NCBI GenBank assembly: GCA_900318085.1
Contig: ONJF01000020.1
Location: forward strand, 1-64,000
Direction of reading: 5' to 3'
Length of the DNA stretch: 64,000 nt
Source of the DNA: an uncultured Bacteroidales bacterium
GTDB lineage: Bacteria > Bacteroidota > Bacteroidia > Bacteroidales > F082
Below the pieces are notes generated by a model. The model was not told the origin of the DNA and searched no databases. It saw only the letters and a list, made by a program, of their open reading frames with translations. Position numbers and translations under genes: made by a program. Positions within the stretch are counted from its first letter, which is position 1; each line of letters starts with the position of its first letter. Of the stretch, positions 34,416 through 43,327 are shown piece by piece.

Positions 34416-37400
34416 TTATTCCACCACAATCTTTCTCACGGCTTGTCCACCATCAGCCTCGATGTGCATCATGTAGATGCCCTTGCCCATTTGCGACAGG
34501 TCGATGCGGACTTGGTCGCCTTCCACCTTGGTGTTGTAGATGGTCTGTCCGAAGGCGTTCGCGATGCGGACGCTTTGGAGTCCTTCGCCCTCAAGAGTGA
34601 TTTCGCCCTTGGTCGGGTTGGGGTAGACCTTGGCGGAGATGTTGTTCTCTCCGATGTCTTCGGTGTACATGAAGTGGGCCACCAGGTCGCGGTTGTGGGT
34701 GATGGTGAAGACGTAAATGGGTTCTTCCGAAACCACTTCGCCATTTTCAGTCCAGTTCAAGAAGGCCCAGTCCTCGTTGCGAATGACGGACAAGGTGACC
34801 TCATCACCATAGTTGTAGGAACCTTCTCCGGTAACGTCGCCTGCTTCTGCGGGTTCAATGGCAACTTTGACCTCTAAAGTCTGCAAGGAGAAGTTGGCAG
34901 TCAGATTGACATTGTTGGTGACGGTGAAGGTATAGGAAGCTTCGTTGGAAACCGAGAAAAATCCTTGTGCCCAATTGACGAAGTCGTAGCCTTCATTGGC
35001 CGTGGCAGTGATGGTGCAGGTCTCGCCATAGTTGAAGGTGCCGCCGCCAGTAACGGTGCCGCCTTCAGTCGGGTTGGCGTTCACATTGACGGTGAAGGTC
35101 TGCAATTGGAAATGGGCCACATAAGCCGCCGATTCGGTCACGGTGAAGGTGTAAGAGGCATTAGTGCTGACTTGAGTGCCGTTCTTGGTCCAATTGACGA
35201 AGGCATAGCCTGCAGCAGGGGTGGCGTTAAGCGTGCAGCTATTTCCATAATTATAGGTGCCGCCACCTGTGACGTTACCACCGTTGACAGGATCAGCCGT
35301 GGCGGTGATGGTGAATTGCTGTGCGGTGAAGTTGGCAACTAAAGTGCGGTTGCCATTCACGGTGAAGGTGTAGCTGGCTTGGGTGGAAACCACATTGCCA
35401 TTCTCGGTCCAGTTGGAGAAGGTGTAGCCCGTGTTGGCTGTGGCAGAGACTGTGCAGGATTGGCCTTGTTGGTAAGTGCCGCCGCCAGTGACGGAGCCGC
35501 CATTGGTCGGGTTGGCCGATACGGTGATGGTGTAGTTCTGCGGTTGGGCTTGGAAGTTAGCCACCAATGTGCGGTTGTTGTTAACGACGAAAGTGTAGTT
35601 GGCTTGCGAAGAGACCACATTGCCATTTTCTGTCCAGTTGGTGAAGGTGTAGCCCGCATTAGGCGTGGCAGTCACCGTGCACGATTGACCTTGGTTATAG
35701 GTGCCACCACCTGTGACAGAGCCGCCGATGGTCGGGTTGGCCGAAACGTTAACGGTGTATTGTTGCGTACCGCCTCCAGTGATCTGGATGGTAGCGATGT
35801 AGGTGATCTTGTTGTAGCCGAACACGGTCAATGTGGCGGTGCCCGTCGTTCCAGGAGCGGCGAAGGTGATGTTACAGGTGCCATTGTTGATGGTGGCCGA
35901 GCCCATGATCTCGTTGTTGCGGGTCAGGGTGGCCAAGGCGCCATTGCCGTTGGTGGCATTGACGGTGAACGAGGTCGCGCTAGTGCTCATGGAGGAGGCG
36001 TGGGTCACGTTCATGTTAGCGGGCGTCATATTACGCACGGTGAGGGTCGGGTCGCCGAAGAGGAGCCAGAACTGATAGGTGGCCAAACCTTGACCATTCG
36101 AGTTGTATTGGTCAAGAATCTTCATGTTGCCGTCGGTCGAAATGCCGCCGAGGGTGCGCTTGATGCTTCTGTGTTCTGTAAGGACGTTGTTCATCTCATC
36201 CTGACCGTACATAGGCGGCTGCCAAGGTTGTGAGATGTAGCTGAACATGCCGCCGATAGCTCCGGTAGGCGCACCAGTGCTGTTGTTGGTGGCACGCATC
36301 CAAGCCTCAGCGAAGCAGGGCTGCGAATAGTCAAGTTGTCCGTTGTTGCAAGCTACCGACCAGATGAAAGGCAACTTGTTGTCGTTGGTCAATGCGTTGA
36401 TGTGCGAGTTGCTGTAGTTGAACACTCCCCAACTTGTCGGTGAACCGTGGTTGCAGTAGTTGATGATGCTCACGCCTTCGTTGATGTGCTGGCTGATGAT
36501 GGCTGCACTTGACGAAACGCCTTGTACGTTCTGGTAATCACGATGAATGCTGGTGTAATTGTAGTGCAATAGCGTGTCTCTGATGTAATCAATGTGTTGA
36601 TAGTCGGCCTCACCAAAGTGGCCACTGCCTGCACCTTCGTTCTTTGAAACGCCTTGTCCAATCGAGAGCCACGTGTCGGCGGCAGTGACATCTCTTTCGT
36701 AGTGGATCACCTTGTCAACTTGAGTGGTGACATGGTCGGCGTTCTCGGCAGAGAAGCGGCCAACGATGACATCGTTGTAATAGTCATTGCCGACCAATTG
36801 TCCATAGTATTGGTCGGTACGGCCGGAATAGCCGCCAGAGAAGGTGTAGTAACTCTGCACTTGTGCATTGTCGCCCACGAGCAGGATGTGGCTGATGTTG
36901 GGGTTGCTGTTGTATTGGTTTTGGATGTAGGTTTTAATGGCTTCGCTGGTGGAACCTGAAACCGAGGTGCCAACCATCGTAACGGGTCTTCCGATCTGTT
37001 TCTTCCAGTTGACGAAAGGCTGCATGGCATCCATGAAAGCGTCGTGGCAGATAATGAGCAGTTCGCCAGTCTCGTCGACGGCGTTGTATTTGCTCAGACC
37101 TTGGCTGTAGTTGATGAAGTGGTTTTGGTACAAGGCACCAAATTCGGGATCCATTCTCACCTCAGATGAACGGCGGCTGAGGGTGTTCTCACCGAGTTGG
37201 CCGTCGCTGTACATTTCAACGGTCATGTTGTAATACACGCGCAAAGTGTGTGTGACAGGGTTGTAGGCGAAAGGATAGAACACCATGTTCTGTCCACGGA
37301 AGTCACGCAGGATGTATGGATCATATAAACCTACATTCTGAGCAGGGAAGAAAGCGTCTGTCGAATAGGCCTCACCATAGGTGTAAGGCACATCGTCGGG

Positions 37401-37784
37401 ATTGACGCTACGCGGGAAATCGCCTTTTGATGGCGCGACCTCCATTTGGAAGTCGGTGTATTGAGCGTCAATGAGGCGAATGCTGTAATGCTGTTGGTCG
37501 CCGATGATGGCCGGAACGGCAATCATGGGGAGGTTGGGCTCGCCGGCAGCAGCGGTGCTGACAGTGCGCGGAACCGAGACGATGTTGGCTTCGCCACGAG
37601 GCGTGGTCACCTCGAAGGTGTAAAAGCCGGGGACTTGCATGTTGACGGTGATTTGGCTCTCCGAAGAGGCAACCAAAGTCGTCTGGATGGTGCTCGGGGC
37701 ATCGCTCTTGATGGCGACCCACTGCTGACCGAAAGTCACTACGGTAAGCAAGACGAGCAGGGTGGTTAGGATATGTTTTCTCAT
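34416..37784 (-). CDS. C25 gingipain-like T9SS protease with five beta-repeats
   Basis: A 1122-residue secreted cysteine protease. After a signal peptide ('ILTTLLVLLTVVTFG') comes a C25 propeptide and a peptidase C25 domain whose catalytic His is in 'INYCNHGSPTSWGVF' and Cys in 'WSVACNNGQLDYSQPCFAEA'. Next is an Ig-like segment, then five tandem InlB-B/Listeria-Bacteroides-type repeats of about 74 residues ('GGSVTGGGTYNQGQSCTVTA' pattern), and a T9SS sorting domain ('YPNPTKGEITLEGEGLQSVR', 'GKGIYMMHIEADG'). ATG 37784 (MRKHILTT) fits the signal peptide. It probably degrades external protein at the cell surface. It differs from P. gingivalis gingipains in carrying the repeat array. Confidence 0.9.
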   Translation of the reverse strand: MRKHILTTLLVLLTVVTFGQQWVAIKSDAPSTIQTTLVASSESQITVNMQVPGFYTFEVTTPRGEANIVSVPRTVSTAAAGEPNLPMIAVPAIIGDQQHYSIRLIDAQYTDFQMEVAPSKGDFPRSVNPDDVPYTYGEAYSTDAFFPAQNVGLYDPYILRDFRGQNMVFYPFAYNPVTHTLRVYYNMTVEMYSDGQLGENTLSRRSSEVRMDPEFGALYQNHFINYSQGLSKYNAVDETGELLIICHDAFMDAMQPFVNWKKQIGRPVTMVGTSVSGSTSEAIKTYIQNQYNSNPNISHILLVGDNAQVQSYYTFSGGYSGRTDQYYGQLVGNDYYNDVIVGRFSAENADHVTTQVDKVIHYERDVTAADTWLSIGQGVSKNEGAGSGHFGEADYQHIDYIRDTLLHYNYTSIHRDYQNVQGVSSSAAIISQHINEGVSIINYCNHGSPTSWGVFNYSNSHINALTNDNKLPFIWSVACNNGQLDYSQPCFAEAWMRATNNSTGAPTGAIGGMFSYISQPWQPPMYGQDEMNNVLTEHRSIKRTLGGISTDGNMKILDQYNSNGQGLATYQFWLLFGDPTLTVRNMTPANMNVTHASSMSTSATSFTVNATNGNGALATLTRNNEIMGSATINNGTCNITFAAPGTTGTATLTVFGYNKITYIATIQITGGGTQQYTVNVSANPTIGGSVTGGGTYNQGQSCTVTATPNAGYTFTNWTENGNVVSSQANYTFVVNNNRTLVANFQAQPQNYTITVSANPTNGGSVTGGGTYQQGQSCTVSATANTGYTFSNWTENGNVVSTQASYTFTVNGNRTLVANFTAQQFTITATADPVNGGNVTGGGTYNYGNSCTLNATPAAGYAFVNWTKNGTQVSTNASYTFTVTESAAYVAHFQLQTFTVNVNANPTEGGTVTGGGTFNYGETCTITATANEGYDFVNWAQGFFSVSNEASYTFTVTNNVNLTANFSLQTLEVKVAIEPAEAGDVTGEGSYNYGDEVTLSVIRNEDWAFLNWTENGEVVSEEPIYVFTITHNRDLVAHFMYTEDIGENNISAKVYPNPTKGEITLEGEGLQSVRIANAFGQTIYNTKVEGDQVRIDLSQMGKGIYMMHIEADGGQAVRKIVVE
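34660..35765 (-). repeat. Five tandem ~220-base repeats coding surface beta-repeats
   Basis: Five in-frame coding units of roughly 220 bases encode about 74 residues each, with conserved core 'GGSVTGGGTY...G.SC...A....GY.F.NW..NG' and closing 'LVANF'. Repeats one and two are nearest to each other; repeat five is the most divergent and lacks the Cys. Confidence 0.85.
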
Positions 37785-37824
37785 AGTAAAATGAATGTTG
37801 ATTTTGATGTAGGTTTTAAAAGGG

Positions 37825-37832
37825 CAAAAATA
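37825..37832 (-). promoter_or_regulatory. -7 box for the gingipain-like gene
   Basis: TATTTTTG on the minus strand, 41 bases before ATG 37784, inside the 70-base gap after hydE. Confidence 0.5.
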
Positions 37833-37854
37833 GTGATTATTTTTGGAATGGCTA

Positions 37855-38943
37855 TCATTTTGGAGCATTTTTCCGTGTAAAAGCGACCGAATCTCCCCAA
37901 GCGTTATACAAAACCTTGTGTCCGATGGCGGCTAGGCGTACATCGAGACAGCTGTGACACTCGTCAGGTTTGTCCTTTACGCAGGCCTTGTCGGGGTAGA
38001 TGAGGTAGTTCTCGCGGAACTCGTTCGGCGTGAGGTTGGGCATGATGACGTTGGCGCCAGCAAGGATGGCTTTCTCGCGCCCCTGTGGGTCGACGGTTTG
38101 GTTGGCGGTGGCGGCTACCATGTTGATTTCGGGCATCATCAGTCGGAGGATGGCGATCATCTTCAAGGTCAGCTCCATGCGTTCCTCGGCCGACGGGATT
38201 TGGTCTCTGTATTGCCACAAAGGCGTGTCGGGGTGGGGGATGAAAGGCCCCATGCCGACCATGGCCACATCTTTTTGCTTGAAGAACAACAGGTCATCGG
38301 CGAGGTCGTCAAGAGTCTGGAAAGGCAGGCCGACCATCACGCCCGTGCCAGTCTGGTAGCCGACTTTCAATAGGCTGTCGATGCAGGCGATACGTTGCTT
38401 GAAGTCGTGTTTCTCATCGTGCGGGTGAATCTTATAATATAGGTCTTCGTTCGAGGCTTCGATGCGGAGCAGGTAACGGTGCGCGCCCGCCTCAAACCAA
38501 CGGCGGTAGGTCTCCTCGGTTTGCTCACCTAATGACAGTGTGATGCCCAAACTTCCATTGTCTATCTTCTTGATTTCCTTGACCAAATAGGTGATCTTAT
38601 CCACGAAAGCCTTATCGCTTCTCTCGCCGCTTTGCAGTGCCACGGAGCCATAGCCCAACTCCTGTGCTAGTTTGGCACATTCGATGACTTCTTCGTCGCT
38701 GAGCGTGTAGCGTTCCACCTTTAGGTTTTTGCAGCGCACGCCACAATAAAGGCAATACTTAGTGCAAATGTTGCTGTACTCAATCAGCCCGCGCAGGTGG
38801 ACGTAGTTGTCCAAATGTGCCAGCTTCACCTGTAGGGCGCGGTCGAAAAGTTTCTTTTTGTTTTCGCCTTCAGCAGCAAGCAGCGTTTTGATTTCCGCTT
38901 TGGAAAGGTTGGCTTTATGTAGTATATCGTCGAATGACAACAT
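37855..38943 (-). CDS. hydE: [FeFe] hydrogenase maturase HydE
   Basis: A 362-residue radical SAM enzyme that helps build the H-cluster of [FeFe] hydrogenases. Cluster ligands Cys60, Cys64 and Cys67 lie in 'YSNICTKYCLYCGVR'. Other HydE marks are 'GSVALQSGERSD', 'LRIEASNEDLYYKIHP', 'QTGTGVMVGLPFQTLDDLA' and the second Cys set 'ACVKDKPDECHSCLD'. HydF, HydG and a hydrogenase are absent here, so they must lie elsewhere if the pathway works. The minus-strand TATTTTTG box at 38961-38968 precedes the gene by 18 bases and diverges from the nucleotidyltransferase promoter. Confidence 0.93.
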   Translation of the reverse strand: MLSFDDILHKANLSKAEIKTLLAAEGENKKKLFDRALQVKLAHLDNYVHLRGLIEYSNICTKYCLYCGVRCKNLKVERYTLSDEEVIECAKLAQELGYGSVALQSGERSDKAFVDKITYLVKEIKKIDNGSLGITLSLGEQTEETYRRWFEAGAHRYLLRIEASNEDLYYKIHPHDEKHDFKQRIACIDSLLKVGYQTGTGVMVGLPFQTLDDLADDLLFFKQKDVAMVGMGPFIPHPDTPLWQYRDQIPSAEERMELTLKMIAILRLMMPEINMVAATANQTVDPQGREKAILAGANVIMPNLTPNEFRENYLIYPDKACVKDKPDECHSCLDVRLAAIGHKVLYNAWGDSVAFTRKNAPK

Positions 38944-38960
38944 GAATGTAAAATTTGCGG

Positions 38961-38995
38961 CAAAAATAAGTATTTCAGAAAAATGTTTATATTTG
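38961..38995. promoter_or_regulatory. Divergent -7 boxes for hydE and the nucleotidyltransferase
   Basis: TATTTTTG on the minus strand (38961-38968) serves hydE; TATATTTG on the plus strand (38988-38995) serves the gene at 39016. The two boxes are 19 bases apart, so the -33 regions overlap the opposite promoter. Confidence 0.5.
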
Positions 38996-39015
38996 CAAAT
39001 TGAAAAAGAAAGAAA

Positions 39016-39339
39016 ATGTCAACACGACAACTTGAAATAGAAAGTTTGATAAAGCATCTTGGAGAGGAAATACTACCCCAAGGAGCTCGCTTGCTGCTTT
39101 TTGGTTCCCAAGCTCGTGATGAGGCAAGACCCGATTCCGATTGGGATTTACTGATTTTGTTGGAAGGTGAAAAAGTGAGCAATGAAGATTTCGACCGTTG
39201 GGTGTTTCCGTTCATTTCATTGGGATGGTCGCTTGGTGTCGACATCAATCCTGTGGCTTACACTTACGATGAATGGATGAGCCGGCAGATAACTCCATTT
39301 TATAAAAATGTAATGAAAGAAGGGGTGGAGTTGAATTAA
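39016..39339 (+). CDS. MNT-type minimal nucleotidyltransferase
   Basis: A 107-residue single-domain nucleotidyltransferase with the family signature 'LLLFGSQARDEARPDSDWDL' (GSx10DxD), giving metal-binding Asp residues in the DSDWD segment. Such proteins usually act as antitoxins that adenylylate (AMPylate) HEPN toxins and are encoded next to them. No intact HEPN gene follows; only 48 bases downstream of the stop can be read as VEEYINKIKTLVEPK, weakly like the start of a HEPN partner. It may be an orphan. Confidence 0.8.
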   Translation: MSTRQLEIESLIKHLGEEILPQGARLLLFGSQARDEARPDSDWDLLILLEGEKVSNEDFDRWVFPFISLGWSLGVDINPVAYTYDEWMSRQITPFYKNVMKEGVELN

Positions 39340-39447
39340 GGTTGAAGAATACATAAACAAGATAAAAACATTAGTTGAACCAAAATAATCGAACAAAAGA
39401 AAACCTAAACACAATAGACATATTATAAGCAGATAGCACTTGTTGCT

Positions 39448-39605
39448 GTCCTTGACTCTCAATTTTCCACAAGCTCCCGTTTTGACGGGACACTCTTCAA
39501 GGACAAGTTGCAAATGCCGTAGTTGTTACGGCGTGGAATACTTGTTAGAAGAGTGGGCGTGGAAACCCGAGAGTCAAGCAAGGAATTGATTCCACGCTTT
39601 TTTTT
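39448..39605 (+). ncRNA. Candidate structured RNA (three-way junction) with competing terminator
   Basis: A strongly base-paired RNA. P1: 39451-39460 with 39569-39578 (10 bp, CTTGACTCTC / GAGAGTCAAG), then a symmetric 3x3 internal loop, then 39464-39470 with 39559-39565 (7 bp). P2: 39475-39480 with 39485-39490 (6 bp, TTTG loop). P3: 39491-39498 with 39548-39555 (8 bp), then 39503-39508 with 39540-39545 (6 bp), a 7x7 internal loop, and 39516-39521 with 39527-39532 (6 bp, five-base loop). Junction strands are AAGC, none, and GGC. The 3' strand of P1 is also the 5' strand of the terminator at 39557-39605, so the two cannot form together. This is the arrangement of a riboswitch or attenuator for the acyltransferase gene 26 bases downstream; a free sRNA is the alternative. 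It matches no RNA family known to me. Confidence 0.7.
39557..39605 (+). terminator. Terminator overlapping the structured RNA
   Basis: Stem GCGTGGAA (39557-39564) with TTCCACGC (39590-39597), an inner TCAA/TTGA helix, and eight T residues (39598-39605). A second GCGTGGAAT copy at 39531-39539 can pair with 39589-39597 instead, giving an alternative fold. Confidence 0.75.
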
Positions 39606-39630
39606 GTATATCAAACATTCAAAGAGAATT

Positions 39631-40785
39631 ATGCAAACTGTTGACAAAAAGAGCAATATCTGGAAAGCATTGAGCTCTTTGTTATCACTAAATGTGAATT
39701 ATCAAGATCGCGTTTTTGGCCTTGACATGATGCGAGCTATAGCCATTCTTAATGTTGTTATTGTTCACGCTGGTAGTTGGATGAACATTTTCCCGGGCTA
39801 TCCGTGGATACCAATCATTCCTGGTGTTGAGTTGTTTTTTGTCTTGAGTGGTTTTCTGATTGGTAGCATTTTATTGAAGACTTATTTGAACGATGGTCCA
39901 TACGGCTTTAAGCAAATGGCAAAATTTTGGAAAAGACGTTGGTTCAGGACTTTGCCCAATTATTACTTGATATTGCTGCTGAACATTGTTTTTGTGTATT
40001 TTGGTTTTATTCATGAAGATTTCACGCAATTCAATTGGAGGTTTTTCCTCTTTGCTCATAACTTGTATGATGGTTTCTATGGATTTTTTTGGGAATCGTG
40101 GAGCTTGTCGATTGAAGAGTGGTTTTATTTGTCTTTCCCGATTGTCCTATTGGTTTTACATTGGTTTTTGCACAAAACGAAGCTGGAAAGAAAGTACATT
40201 TTCTTGGTGAATATTGTCTTGTTTCTCTGTTTTTCCATTTTGATGAGAGTTCTTTTTGGCAGTAAGCAACAGGTGACAGGCAGTTTTTCGTATGGTATGA
40301 AGATTGAAAAAGTCGTGGTTTATCATCTGGACGGCATCGCCTTTGGCCTTTTGGGTGCTTACCTGAAGTATTGGTTCCCGGTTTTTTGGCATAAATCTCG
40401 TAATGTGACTTTTATTGTAGGTTTGTTTGTCTGTTTTTTTCTCATGCAATACATTAATTGGTCTCCAACCGATTCCACAGCGGTAGTTTTGAAAATAGCA
40501 TTACAAAGTTTGGGATGCTTTCTGCTGTTGCCTCGTTTTGATACCATAAAATCGGCTCCAAAAACATTGAGAAAAGTCGTTACGCACATTAGCCTGATTT
40601 CCTATTCCATGTACCTGATTAATCTTTCAATGGTTGCTTCAGTGATTACGTCTAATATCCATATAGAAGGTAAGTTGAGTGCGGTAGTATGGTACTTGGT
40701 TTATTGGACCATTGTTATCGTTGCCTCCACGCTCTTATACAAGTATTTCGAAAAGCCGATAATGGACTTGCGGGACAAGGTTTGA
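39631..40785 (+). CDS. Acyltransferase family 3 (OafA/YrhL-type) membrane protein
   Basis: A 384-residue integral membrane O-acyltransferase with about ten helices. The N-terminal 'GLDMMRAIAILNVVIVHAG' (with the conserved R and catalytic-type H), 'GVELFFVLSGFLIGSILL' and 'WSLSIEEWFYLSFP' segments are diagnostic for the Acyl_transf_3 family, which acetylates polysaccharides, LPS or other envelope sugars. ATG 39631 is preferred over a longer frame that would run back through the terminator and RNA. Low GC and many Phe/Leu/Ile codons set it apart from the nearby fab and etf genes, hinting at acquisition. The structured RNA just upstream may control it. Confidence 0.88.
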   Translation: MQTVDKKSNIWKALSSLLSLNVNYQDRVFGLDMMRAIAILNVVIVHAGSWMNIFPGYPWIPIIPGVELFFVLSGFLIGSILLKTYLNDGPYGFKQMAKFWKRRWFRTLPNYYLILLLNIVFVYFGFIHEDFTQFNWRFFLFAHNLYDGFYGFFWESWSLSIEEWFYLSFPIVLLVLHWFLHKTKLERKYIFLVNIVLFLCFSILMRVLFGSKQQVTGSFSYGMKIEKVVVYHLDGIAFGLLGAYLKYWFPVFWHKSRNVTFIVGLFVCFFLMQYINWSPTDSTAVVLKIALQSLGCFLLLPRFDTIKSAPKTLRKVVTHISLISYSMYLINLSMVASVITSNIHIEGKLSAVVWYLVYWTIVIVASTLLYKYFEKPIMDLRDKV

Positions 40786-40899
40786 GAATCAAAGAATCCA
40801 TGTCTTTGCCGCTGAATGTCTAGGATTTATGTAGGTTTCTATACTAAATTATACTAATAAATGTTTGGTATTGGTGTGATTGTTTTTAGTGTAGTGTTT

Positions 40900-40969
40900 G
40901 TAGGTCTGTCACATCGTGGCAGCCGCAGCGATAAATGATGCTGCGGCTGCCGTGGTACGACAGCCCTAC
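40900..40969. repeat. Long hairpin bounded by GTAGG / CCTAC
   Basis: The arms pair as GTAGG (40900-40904) with CCTAC, CTGTC with GACAG, a 7x7 internal loop, and a perfect 12-base helix GGCAGCCGCAGC (40918-40929) with GCTGCGGCTGCC (40940-40951) around a ten-base loop. The GTAG...CTAC ends recall the palindromes at 8230 and 29766. It could be a mobile palindromic element or part of a small RNA that ends at the terminator just after it. Confidence 0.75.
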
Positions 40970-40970
40970 A

Positions 40971-41000
40971 ATCCTCGGCCTTCGGGTCGGGGATTTTTTT
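40971..41000 (+). terminator. UUCG-loop hairpin terminator
   Basis: Stem ATCCTCGGCC / GGTCGGGGAT (10 pairs including two G-U) capped by TTCG and followed by seven T. It can end the acyltransferase transcript or a small RNA covering 40900-40969. Confidence 0.85.
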
Positions 41001-41026
41001 GTTTCATGGCCTTATGTTTTTTTTTC

Positions 41027-41048
41027 GTACAGATTTACGATTGAATCG
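41027..41048. repeat. 22-base repeat, left copy beside the ATPase gene
   Basis: GTACAGATTTACGATTGAATCG-type 22-mer (starts GTACAGATTTACGATTG), identical to 42244-42265. Its last bases supply the -33 TTG of the ATPase promoter, and it forms an imperfect palindrome with the following ATAATTTGTAC. Confidence 0.85.
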
Positions 41049-41067
41049 ATAATTTGTACTATCTTTG
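41041..41067 (+). promoter_or_regulatory. Promoter for the DUF4143 ATPase
   Basis: TTG at 41041-41043 and TATCTTTG at 41060-41067, 16 bases apart; the ATG is 20 bases past the -7 box. The promoter is built into the 22-base repeat, so the repeat may carry the regulatory site. Confidence 0.65.
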
Positions 41068-41087
41068 CGGGATCAATTGAATTTGTG

Positions 41088-42236
41088 ATGATAGAAAGAA
41101 CGATTACCGCAAAATTGCGTCGGATGACGACATTTTATCCGATCGTGTTGCTGACGGGTCCACGACAGTCGGGGAAATCCACTTTGCTTCGCGAGGAATT
41201 TCCTGAATACCAATATGTTTCGTTGGAAGATTTGGATAACCGCAGCTTTGCATTGGACGACCCTCGAGGTTTTTTGGATACCTACCCCGACAAAACCATC
41301 ATCGACGAGGCGCAATATGCCCCAAACTTGTTTTCCTATTTGCAAACTCACGTGGATAGTGTCAATAAGGAGGGAATGTACATCCTTTCCGGCTCACAAA
41401 ATTTCCAACTTATGGAAAAGATTTCGCAGTCTTTGGCGGGTCGCGTGGCCATTTTGGAACTGTTGCCGTTTTCTCGTGAGGAACTAAAATCTGCCGATAT
41501 GCTTCCTCAAACGATTGAGGATGAAATGTTTATGGGTGCCTATCCGCGTTTATTCGACAAAGGCATCCCGCCCACTGAGTATTATCCTTATTATATCAAG
41601 ACCTACGTGGAGCGTGATGTCAGGCAGTTGAAGAATGTGAGCGATTTGGGCCTGTTCGTGAAGTTCATCAAGTTGTGCGCAGGTCGCATAGGTCAGTTGC
41701 TGAATTATTCTTCGCTGGCCAACGATTGCGGCATTGCGGTTTCCACGGCACAGGCATGGCTTTCAATGCTTGAAACAAGTTATATTGTGCATTTGTTGCG
41801 GCCTGATTTCAATAACTTTTCAAAGCGACTGATTAAATCACCAAAGTTGTATTTCTACGATACAGGCTTGGCTTGTTCGCTTTTGGAGATAAAAGACGCG
41901 AAGCAGATTGAATCTCATTATCTTAAGGGCGGGTTGTTTGAGAATTATGTCATCAACCTATTCTTGAAAAAAGCATTCAATAAAGGTGAAACGCCCCAAT
42001 TGTCGTTTTGGCGCGACAACAAGGGTAACGAAGTTGATTTATTGGAAACTATTGAAGGAAAGCAGTTTGCCTACGAGATCAAGTCGGGAAAGACCTATTC
42101 GACAGATTATGCCAATTCATTGAAGTATTGGGCAGGTTTGTCGTCAGCTGATGCTGAACACTGCAATATCGTGTATGGTGGCGAACAGAAACTAAATATG
42201 TCAGAATTTAATGTGCTGACTATAAATGATATATAA
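41088..42236 (+). CDS. AAA_14/DUF4143 ATP-binding protein
   Basis: A 382-residue ATPase of the AAA_14 plus DUF4143 type. Walker A 'LTGPRQSGKSTLL' is near residue 24 and Walker B 'KTIIDEAQYAPNLF' near 70; sensor-like 'YILSGSQNFQLMEKIS' follows, and the C-terminal DUF4143 nuclease-like segment is seen as 'SFWRDNKGNEVDLLE' and 'FAYEIKSGKTYS'. Such genes are numerous, poorly understood and often spread horizontally in Bacteroidota. ATG 41088 is supported by the promoter 20 bases upstream. The gene is flanked by a 22-base direct repeat, and the right copy is part of a 43-base near-perfect palindrome. Confidence 0.87.
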   Translation: MIERTITAKLRRMTTFYPIVLLTGPRQSGKSTLLREEFPEYQYVSLEDLDNRSFALDDPRGFLDTYPDKTIIDEAQYAPNLFSYLQTHVDSVNKEGMYILSGSQNFQLMEKISQSLAGRVAILELLPFSREELKSADMLPQTIEDEMFMGAYPRLFDKGIPPTEYYPYYIKTYVERDVRQLKNVSDLGLFVKFIKLCAGRIGQLLNYSSLANDCGIAVSTAQAWLSMLETSYIVHLLRPDFNNFSKRLIKSPKLYFYDTGLACSLLEIKDAKQIESHYLKGGLFENYVINLFLKKAFNKGETPQLSFWRDNKGNEVDLLETIEGKQFAYEIKSGKTYSTDYANSLKYWAGLSSADAEHCNIVYGGEQKLNMSEFNVLTINDI

Positions 42237-42238
42237 TA

Positions 42239-42281
42239 TATTAGTACAGATTTACGATTGAATCGTAAATCTGTACTAATA
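42239..42281. repeat. Palindrome holding the right copy of the 22-base repeat
   Basis: Arms of 21 bases (42239-42259 and 42261-42281) around a single base form a perfect palindrome; it contains the 22-mer shared with 41027-41048. It directly follows the stop codon of the ATPase gene and could serve as a terminator or as the end of a mobile unit. A 15-base CTTAGGATTGGTGTA direct repeat follows at 42294-42308 and again about 40 bases later. Confidence 0.85.
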
Positions 42282-42412
42282 ATATCGCAAATACTTAGGA
42301 TTGGTGTAGATTTTTGAGAAATGAATGCTTAGGATTGGTGTACGGTTATGTGTTTCTGCCGCTTTATATGACTCCTTTTTTGTGAGATTGAGCCTCATAA
42401 GGAATTTTTCCG

Positions 42413-42420
42413 TACCTTTG
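42413..42420 (+). promoter_or_regulatory. -7 box for the etf/acyl-CoA dehydrogenase operon
   Basis: TACCTTTG, 31 bases before the etfB ATG; a TTG at 42388-42390 lies 22 bases upstream as a possible -33 element. Confidence 0.6.
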
Positions 42421-42451
42421 CCGCCGATTTGAAAACGAGAAATTTTATTTT

Positions 42452-43327
42452 ATGACCAAAGCATTGAAAATCGTGGTGCTTGCCAAGCAGGTGCCCGATA
42501 CTAGAAATGTGGGCAAAGACGCCATGACGCCGGAAGGCACCGTCAACCGCGCCGCCCTGCCCGCCATCTTCAACCCCGAAGACCTGAACGCCCTTGAACA
42601 GGCGCTGCGCCTCAAGGAGCAGAATCCAGGCAGCATCGTCGGCGTGCTCACCATGGGCCCGCCGCGCGCCGGTGAGATCATCCGCCAAGGCCTCTTCCGT
42701 GGAGCCGACACGGGCTGGCTGCTCACCGACCGCCTCTTCGCAGGCGCCGACACCCTCGCCACTTCGTATGCCCTCGCCACCGCCATCAAGAAGATCGGCG
42801 ATGTCGACATCGTCATCGGAGGCCGTCAGGCCATCGACGGCGACACCGCCCAGGTGGGTCCGCAAGTGGCACAGAAACTGGGTCTCAACCAAGTGACTTA
42901 CGCCGAGGAAATCCTCAAGATCGAAAACAACATCGCCACTATCCGCCGCCATATCGACGGTGGCGTGGAGACCGTGGAAGTGCCGCTGCCCTGCGTGATT
43001 ACCGTCAACGGTAGCGCGGCACCCTGCCGTCCCTGCAACGCCAAGTTGGTGATGAAATACAAGTATGCCTCATGCCCGCTGGAGCGTCAGCCCGAAGATC
43101 CTCGCGCCGACCTCTATGCCAAACGTGACTACCTCAACCTCAACCAGTGGAGCGTGGCCGACGTGGATGGCGACCCCAACCAGTGCGGCCTCTCTGGTAG
43201 TCCCACTAAGGTGAAAACCGTGCAAAACATCGTCTTCCAAGCCAAGGAGAGCAAGACCCTCACCGCCAGCGATGCCGATGTGGAAGGATTGGTGAAAGAG
43301 TTGTTGTCCGAAAAAATTATTGGTTAA
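42452..43327 (+). CDS. etfB: Electron transfer flavoprotein subunit beta
   Basis: A 291-residue EtfB/FixA that binds AMP or FAD and with EtfA shuttles electrons to or from acyl-CoA dehydrogenases. Typical blocks are 'VLAKQVPDTRNVGKDAMTPE', 'IFNPEDLNALEQALRLKEQ', 'GADTLATSYALATAIKK' and 'IGGRQAIDGDTAQVGPQVA'. It is longer than housekeeping EtfB and resembles anaerobic forms that can take part in electron bifurcation. It heads an operon with etfA and the dehydrogenase, but a small unrelated membrane gene interrupts it. Confidence 0.93.
   Translation: MTKALKIVVLAKQVPDTRNVGKDAMTPEGTVNRAALPAIFNPEDLNALEQALRLKEQNPGSIVGVLTMGPPRAGEIIRQGLFRGADTGWLLTDRLFAGADTLATSYALATAIKKIGDVDIVIGGRQAIDGDTAQVGPQVAQKLGLNQVTYAEEILKIENNIATIRRHIDGGVETVEVPLPCVITVNGSAAPCRPCNAKLVMKYKYASCPLERQPEDPRADLYAKRDYLNLNQWSVADVDGDPNQCGLSGSPTKVKTVQNIVFQAKESKTLTASDADVEGLVKELLSEKIIG

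Follow-up and report, generated by a model that had tools for sequence, protein, structure and literature searches.

6S RNA is a rod-like molecule similar in length to the RNA that is the subject of this report. Among structured RNAs of Bacteroidota, PMC2864571 describes 6S-Flavo (RF01685) and Bacteroidales-1 (RF01693), as well as Bacteroides-2 and GUCCY-hairpin, which carry no Rfam number in its table and so fall outside the Rfam results below. We examined an RNA-like element at positions 39432-39605 of a 64,000-nucleotide stretch (the window) of contig ONJF01000020.1, which lies in the 3.24 Mb genome (93 contigs) of an uncultured Bacteroidales bacterium. This compact element is probably a cis-acting transcription attenuator and one copy of a leader RNA that is widespread in Bacteroidales, a judgement drawn from sequence comparison. 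The element shows a nested fold and two conserved sets of complementarity, lies ahead of genes and has no Rfam match; it apparently represents a large, undescribed RNA switch family of gut Bacteroidales.

The whole window yielded only tRNA at Rfam 15 gathering scores. Against 4227 Rfam models at E<=10, the element matched just Ysr202 (9.0 bits) and snR41 (15.7 bits), both far under their cut-offs. No gathering-score match fell on the element at 56 further loci, most of which carry a type I, type II or divergent copy. The window's element is of type I; type II is a divergent relative that was discovered by searching for a helix-turn-helix (HTH) protein family and then reading upstream. The preliminary description of this DNA knew of no fitting Rfam family, and none indeed reached its gathering score on the element. 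Identities as a known riboswitch, 6S RNA or T-box leader are unsupported by these searches; no 6S model matched at E<=10, and up to 12 copies occur per genome, where a 6S RNA would be expected to have a single housekeeping locus. A MicX match to the leader at locus L172 (27.3 bits, cut-off 75, E 0.04) is taken as chance. The literature searched contains no article about a leader of this kind, although the family may overlap with one of the several thousand candidates in PMC8040213.

Two alternative folds of one RNA

The segment 39440-39610 has a minimum free energy of -66.7 kcal/mol (z -5.52), and none of 200 shuffled sequences folded equally well. Its helices (Table 1) are nested in what we term the open state, or state B. 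Earlier reading of the sequence had proposed a nested fold of 43 pairs. The fold is borne out by this z score and by its conservation in 79 copies, but our own mapping gives 45 nested pairs, and the earlier helix list omitted both the P0 hairpin and the second partners of 39449-39455 and 39497-39503. P0 appears in the state B fold and recurs with altered letters in other copies (ATAGC/GCTAT and AAAAGC/GCTTTT, by eye).

Table 1. Features of the element and its adjoining genes (window coordinates)
Feature	Position	Strand	Remark
Nucleotidyltransferase (MNT, antitoxin-like) upstream gene	39016-39339	+	Pfam NTP_transf_2, 2.2e-8
P0 hairpin, GATAGCA/TGCTGTC	39432-39450 (39432-39438/39444-39450)	+	lies 5' of P1 and begins segment 1
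Open state (state B)	39451-39578	+	P1a, P1b, P2, P3a, P3b and P4, nested
P1a	39451-39460/39569-39578	+	10 pairs
P1b	39464-39470/39559-39565	+	7 pairs
P2	39476-39480/39485-39489	+	5 pairs
P3a	39491-39498/39548-39555	+	8 pairs
P3b	39502-39508/39540-39546	+	7 pairs
P4	39514-39521/39527-39534	+	8 pairs
Segment X (TCCTTGA)	39449-39455	+	predicted to pair with 39497-39503 in the terminator state; in P1a of the open state, its five 3'-terminal bases pair with 39574-39578
Segment X' (TCAAGGA)	39497-39503	+	partner of X in the predicted terminator state
Copy 1 and Z (GCGTGGAAT, CTTGTT)	39531-39546	+	5' arm of the predicted terminator in state A
GGG...CCC around the 3' strand of P1b	39555-39568	+	possible mini-hairpin in the terminator loop
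X'' (AGCAAG) and tail (ATTCCACGC)	39577-39597	+	3' arm of the predicted terminator
Terminator U-run	39598-39605	+	
Acyltransferase gene	39631-40785	+	Pfam Acyl_transf_3, 1.1e-20

Conservation was assessed in an alignment (A7) of 79 distinct copies, including the window's, which was built on R1, a covariance model of 19 sequences, so that its counts lean towards the R1 structure. State B pairs in 96.2% of 3424 cells, and 29 of its 44 pairs have changed on both sides. The covariation score is 0.478, compared with 0.186 for shuffled alignments, none of 500 of which reached the observed value, and slid versions of the fold pair in just 37.5 to 44.3% of cells. Double changes kept on the tree are most numerous in P1a (82) and P3a (81), followed by P1b (19), P4 (13) and P3b (3). 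P1a and P3a are hypervariable in sequence and strict in pairing, P1a being paired in 97.7% of cells. By these comparative measures, the nested fold is real and under selection.

Several of the same segments are also complementary in a second arrangement, the terminator state or state A. There X would pair with X', and copy 1 with Z would form the 5' arm of a terminator; in state B, Z instead goes into P3b, and P4 is closed by part of copy 1. X:X' pairing is found in 97.1% of 549 cells of the type I alignment, with six double changes kept on the tree. The GGG/CCC pairing holds in 99.2% of 236 cells, A-U replacing G-C in 3 of the 79 rows, and has no double changes on the tree. Taken together, the state A helices pair in 96.9% of 1949 type I cells, with a covariation score of 0.132 against 0.095 (0 of 500 shuffles). 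Divergent and type II copies give further evidence of matched arms. Copy 1 and the tail of the same RNA score -16.3, compared with -13.7 when swapped among 11 divergent copies (0 of 5000). The corresponding values for the type II terminator arms are -25.7 and -20.2 kcal/mol (standard deviation 0.36, 0 of 5000), and for type II X:X' they are -12.7 and -11.8 (0 of 5000). The nested fold is likewise found in type II, where 88.0% of cells pair and covariation is 0.479 versus 0.207 (83 aligned copies). A T-rich run also follows the tail in other copies, and is weaker in some type II RNAs (ATTTTG).

The preliminary description correctly recognized that the closing stem and a terminator are mutually alternative, and that eight T precede the acyltransferase ATG. 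It took the 3' strand of P1 (copy 2) as the 5' strand of the terminator, so that P1 itself would be the antiterminator. A terminator formed by copy 2 does have better nearest-neighbour energy than one formed by copy 1 in 87 of 117 type I copies, including the window, because P3 and P4 can stay, and GCGTGG/CCACGC is kept in most of the 79 type I rows. However, copy 2 and the tail meet in a T-T mismatch at one pair in 27 of those rows, and no double change between them is kept on the tree. Moreover, in all 12 divergent copies examined the tail is bound by copy 1 at -13.2 to -20.0 kcal/mol and by the copy 2 region at only -3.0 to -9.7. Since copy 2 does not covary with the tail and fits it far worse in divergent copies, the conserved 5' strand of the predicted terminator is copy 1 (39531-39539), not 39557-39564, and we regard a P1 antiterminator paired through copy 2 as very unlikely. 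The duplicate GCGTGGAA at 39531 is present, and what had been offered as a possible third state turns out to be the conserved partner of the terminator.

Two points weigh against an attenuator built on copy 1: support for state A is modest in type I taken alone, and the energy advantage of the copy 2 terminator extends to most type I copies. In energy runs, which score no pseudoknots, the open fold of type I is favoured by a mean of 10.1 kcal/mol (131 of 134 copies, three being dropped through regular-expression failure), and the window, like type I generally, scores clearly better in the open fold than in the terminator state. Type II leaders approach balance in 2 of 15 cases (L172, -63.0/-62.7; L180, -64.9/-64.3); the other 13 favour state B, with state A just partly forced in two of them. 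The two complementarities might also coexist in a stable pseudoknotted RNA in which P1 to P4 and the pairing of copy 1 with the tail are present at once, giving a constitutive terminator and no switch. Inspection of the fold shows that GGAAT of copy 1, unpaired in state B, could pair with ATTCC of the tail while P1 is intact. We judge such an RNA unlikely, and favour two competing states.

Position ahead of genes

Genes begin shortly behind the U-run. In 117 of the 120 copies with enough flanking sequence, an open reading frame (ORF) of at least 60 amino acids on the same strand has its ATG within 250 nucleotides downstream, compared with 53 when the other side was searched as a mirror control; raising the ORF minimum to 150 amino acids gives 68 and 11. 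In 66 of 133 copies the Bacteroidota -7 motif, TAnnTTTG, stands 30-130 nucleotides ahead of P1; the opposite strand has it in 12 of 133, and windows placed farther upstream have it in 1 of 132 and 11 of 131. Between the U-run and the start codon, 115 of 127 copies have no such motif, and the U-run stands 0-30 nucleotides before many HTH start codons, which leaves no room for a promoter. Judged from this arrangement, the RNA acts as a leader.

These data also bear on whether the 160-nucleotide transcript might itself be the product, a free small RNA that terminates at the U-run and works in trans, the genes being separately controlled. Its strong 3' end, its extensive structure and the upstream -7 motif that about half of the copies own would all suit such an RNA. 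Against it stand the general lack of the motif before the downstream gene, the enrichment of same-strand genes and the retention of two competing folds, and we consider a free small RNA quite unlikely compared with a cis-acting leader. No leader peptide across X is evident by eye. Between the promoter motif and the leader, copies of the promoter type repeatedly carry a start-stop (ATGTAG or ATGTAA) as well as a GACATA motif, 40-60 nucleotides before P0 in L022, L023, L025, L044, L050, L137, L146 and others.

The commonest downstream gene encodes a short XRE-like HTH protein with an N-terminal HIG motif and a weak Pfam match (HTH_26). Regular-expression matching places such HIG-HTH genes behind 47 of 134 type I copies, four more being visible (L047, L107, L128 and L131), and behind 32 of 65 type II copies, with one more by eye (L349). 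Of these 65 type II loci, the search supplied 25 and we selected the other 40 from its list. Genes of restriction-modification type follow nine of them: eight have Pfam hits to DNA methylases, and the ninth encodes a ResIII-HNH protein. Other downstream proteins, of which 70 of 74 de-duplicated representatives were covered by a Pfam scan, include BspA-type LRR proteins (12), T9SS sorting tails (10) and zinc ribbons (7). The window's leader is followed by an acyltransferase gene and not by an HTH gene. Over the loci examined (tblastn, E<=1e-8), the acyltransferase matches solely the window's own copies; the envisaged recurrence ahead of acyltransferase genes is thus not seen, and control of this gene was rejected as a general function.

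Distribution and neighbourhood

Many copies were detected by BLAST in 60 relatives. R1 matches (E<=0.001) occur in 71 of 99 genomes of the genus, with up to 12 per genome, and in 27 of 392 genomes of the order, representing 17 of 204 genera; searches covering more than 40 genomes used stricter filters. Across the phylum, and with such filters, a model of 79 sequences (R2) matched 4 of 392 genomes, the window's own counted. The window's genome has a second, weak match (C31:33558-33705, 33.1 bits). R3, a type II model of 15 sequences, has matches (E<=0.001) in 105 of 295 Bacteroidales genomes, which span 66 of the 177 genera sampled. A covariance search for the fold, which the preliminary description had suggested, therefore does return covarying homologues in many genomes, and they lie ahead of genes. 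Four further loci (L317-L320) hold leader relatives from other families of the class; the first long ORF in L318 and L319 (424 and 423 amino acids, with a SusC-like start by eye) begins ~225 nucleotides past the element.

The HTH family used to find type II occurs in 37 of 60 genomes (E<=1e-6). Fifty HTH loci, 30 given by the search and 20 hand-picked, comprised 16 with a type I leader, 21 with a type II leader (R3) and 13 with neither; R2 typing covered the first 30 only, and because the other 20 were picked for lacking R1 matches, the sample is biased. Outside Bacteroidota, pattern matches in Paenibacillus, Methylococcaceae, Rhodobacteraceae, Dehalococcoidia and Proteobacteria were not confirmed by R2; the check covered 24 loci from a list of 80, of which 19 matched. 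Plasmids and phages gave no blastn hit at E<=1e-5 when a single copy of each type, I and II, served as query, and two exact patterns gave no matches in viral contigs; both searches reach close relatives only.

Two RNAs of other families lie near copies of the leader. A Flavo-1 RNA (RF01705, 43.7 bits, gathering score 42) at L169:975-1056 precedes a type II leader, with an HTH gene, by ~200 nucleotides; it falls outside the leader and was rejected as its identity. A group II intron domain (RF00029, 65.6 bits) lies on the minus strand at L105:1915-1989, near a divergent copy.

Toxin-antitoxin genes often lie just upstream of the leader in the genus. An MNT gene followed by a HEPN-like gene directly precedes the RNA in L004, L005, L006, L008, L009, L013 and L016, and the same order is seen in L031, L033, L034, L037, L038 and L041, some with HEPN Pfam hits; the window, unlike these loci, has no HEPN partner between its MNT gene and the RNA. 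We scanned 118 upstream ORFs, namely the window's MNT gene and 117 of 173 de-duplicated representatives (at most two per copy, on both strands; 56 were dropped by eye as likely antisense, short or redundant). Pfam families found were NTP_transf_2 (11), DUF4160 (7), PIN_3 (6), HEPN (6) and DUF1016_N (5), and AbiEi, Fic, Zeta, DUF2442 and GNAT (2 each), some families sharing members. These families were absent from the best 25 of 80 families among 49 other window genes and from the best 25 of 47 families of downstream proteins, though single members could hide below either cut. No toxin-antitoxin neighbourhood is evident by eye around type II copies, for which no profile scan was made.

Genes differ around the same RNA at one syntenic place. 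As in the window, hydE and an ETF gene flank the element in L007, L031, L037 and L145 (tblastn). The interval holds MNT-RNA-acyltransferase-AAA_14 in the window, MNT-HEPN-RNA-zinc ribbon in L031 and L037, and DUF4160/DUF2442-RNA-zinc ribbon in L145 (by eye). In L015, where the hydE side alone is covered, the RNA lies ~145 nucleotides from hydE with no toxin-antitoxin gene between, and a zinc ribbon follows. The RNA thus stays while its neighbours change. The hydE-ETF interval (38943-42452 in the window) is variable in related genomes, with toxin-antitoxin, zinc-ribbon, acyltransferase and AAA_14-DUF4143 genes exchanged around the RNA. Elsewhere in the window are a large minus-strand gene of 1150 amino acids with repeated units (34416-37868) and genes of the Divergent InlB B-repeat, Peptidase_C25 and T9SS sorting families.

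The element might instead be the end of a mobile cassette, a recombination site of toxin-antitoxin cassettes that folds as single-stranded DNA in the manner of integron attC, the site at the ends of cassettes that an integrase moves. Many kinds of toxin-antitoxin genes do lie just upstream in the genus, and L041-L043 contain arrays of a toxin-antitoxin-like gene, the element and an HTH gene. However, copies with a promoter motif and without a toxin-antitoxin gene are common, the element is co-directional with the downstream gene, its U-run is kept, and the hydE-ETF place has the element both with and without toxin-antitoxin genes. We find a cassette end hardly credible, and retain the attenuator. 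As a separate observation, L041, L042, L043, L125 and L139 each have two or three leader copies within a few kilobases, with toxin-antitoxin-like, Fic or DUF1016, and HTH genes between.

Proposed mechanism and known systems

Mutually exclusive terminator and antiterminator helices, both conserved and ahead of a gene, are the hallmark of an attenuator and are found here. The RNA can be divided into four segments: P0 and X (1), X' and the 5' strand of P4 (2), copy 1 and Z (3), and X'' and the tail (4). In the terminator state 1:2 and 3:4 would form, and, as the 3:4 helix ends at the U-run, we propose that transcription therefore halts short of the gene. The open state would instead consist of 2:3 (P3b and P4) and 1:4 (P1), leaving the tail free and allowing RNA polymerase to read into the gene. 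Termination by this helix, the default state and a signal that tips the balance are inferred. Possibly 1:2 is the first helix to form as the RNA is transcribed, and its replacement by P1 depends on a protein or a second RNA that acts on P2 or on the 5' strands of P1; the leading candidate is the HIG-HTH protein encoded right behind many copies. The preliminary description thus saw a real regulatory RNA and the right attenuator logic, which two conserved folds ahead of genes support, but assigned the wrong terminator partner and a target peculiar to this genome.

A more speculative extension, which we hold to be doubtful though worth stating, is that one bistable architecture gates a conflict regulon of restriction-modification genes, HIG-HTH genes and genes behind toxin-antitoxin modules. 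HIG-HTH proteins would act on RNA and set the state of leaders both in cis and in trans. P1a and P3a, hypervariable yet strictly paired, would prevent cross-pairing between the many copies in one cell.

If the attenuator is correct, this would be a large class of regulatory RNA in a dominant gut order, no tested copy of which was caught by an Rfam model. The family may reveal how Bacteroidales gate accessory genes such as small regulators, restriction-modification systems and surface proteins, and its targets suggest that attenuation controls some of them. Having two complete folds that are alternatives to each other, it offers a clean candidate for a bistable RNA occurring in nature.

Among known systems, 6S-Flavo and Bacteroidales-1 differ in that the element does not match them at E<=10, has many copies per genome and lies ahead of genes. 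The type III toxin-antitoxin RNA ToxI shares a structured RNA, a terminator and a small ORF directly behind, but here no repeats were seen, the small downstream protein is an HTH protein (HTH_26) rather than a ToxN-like nuclease, and many other genes also occur downstream. T-box leaders (RF00230) share an antiterminator and terminator in a leader, and GGGCGUGGAAACCC of copy 2 presumably resembles the T-box bulge; however, the element has no Rfam T-box match at E<=10. A conserved UGGN bulge that binds the end of a tRNA marks T-box leaders. Here UGG is present in copies 1 and 2 of type I, missing from copy 2 in divergent L099, L100 and L103-L105, and missing from copy 1 of the inspected type II copies except L186. 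Finally, four-segment attenuators of the trp and erm type share the alternation of 1:2 and 3:4 with 2:3, and an intrinsic terminator before the gene. Unlike them, the RNA described here has no conserved leader peptide by eye, also forms 1:4 so that all four segments swap partners, and precedes unrelated genes in several copies per genome.
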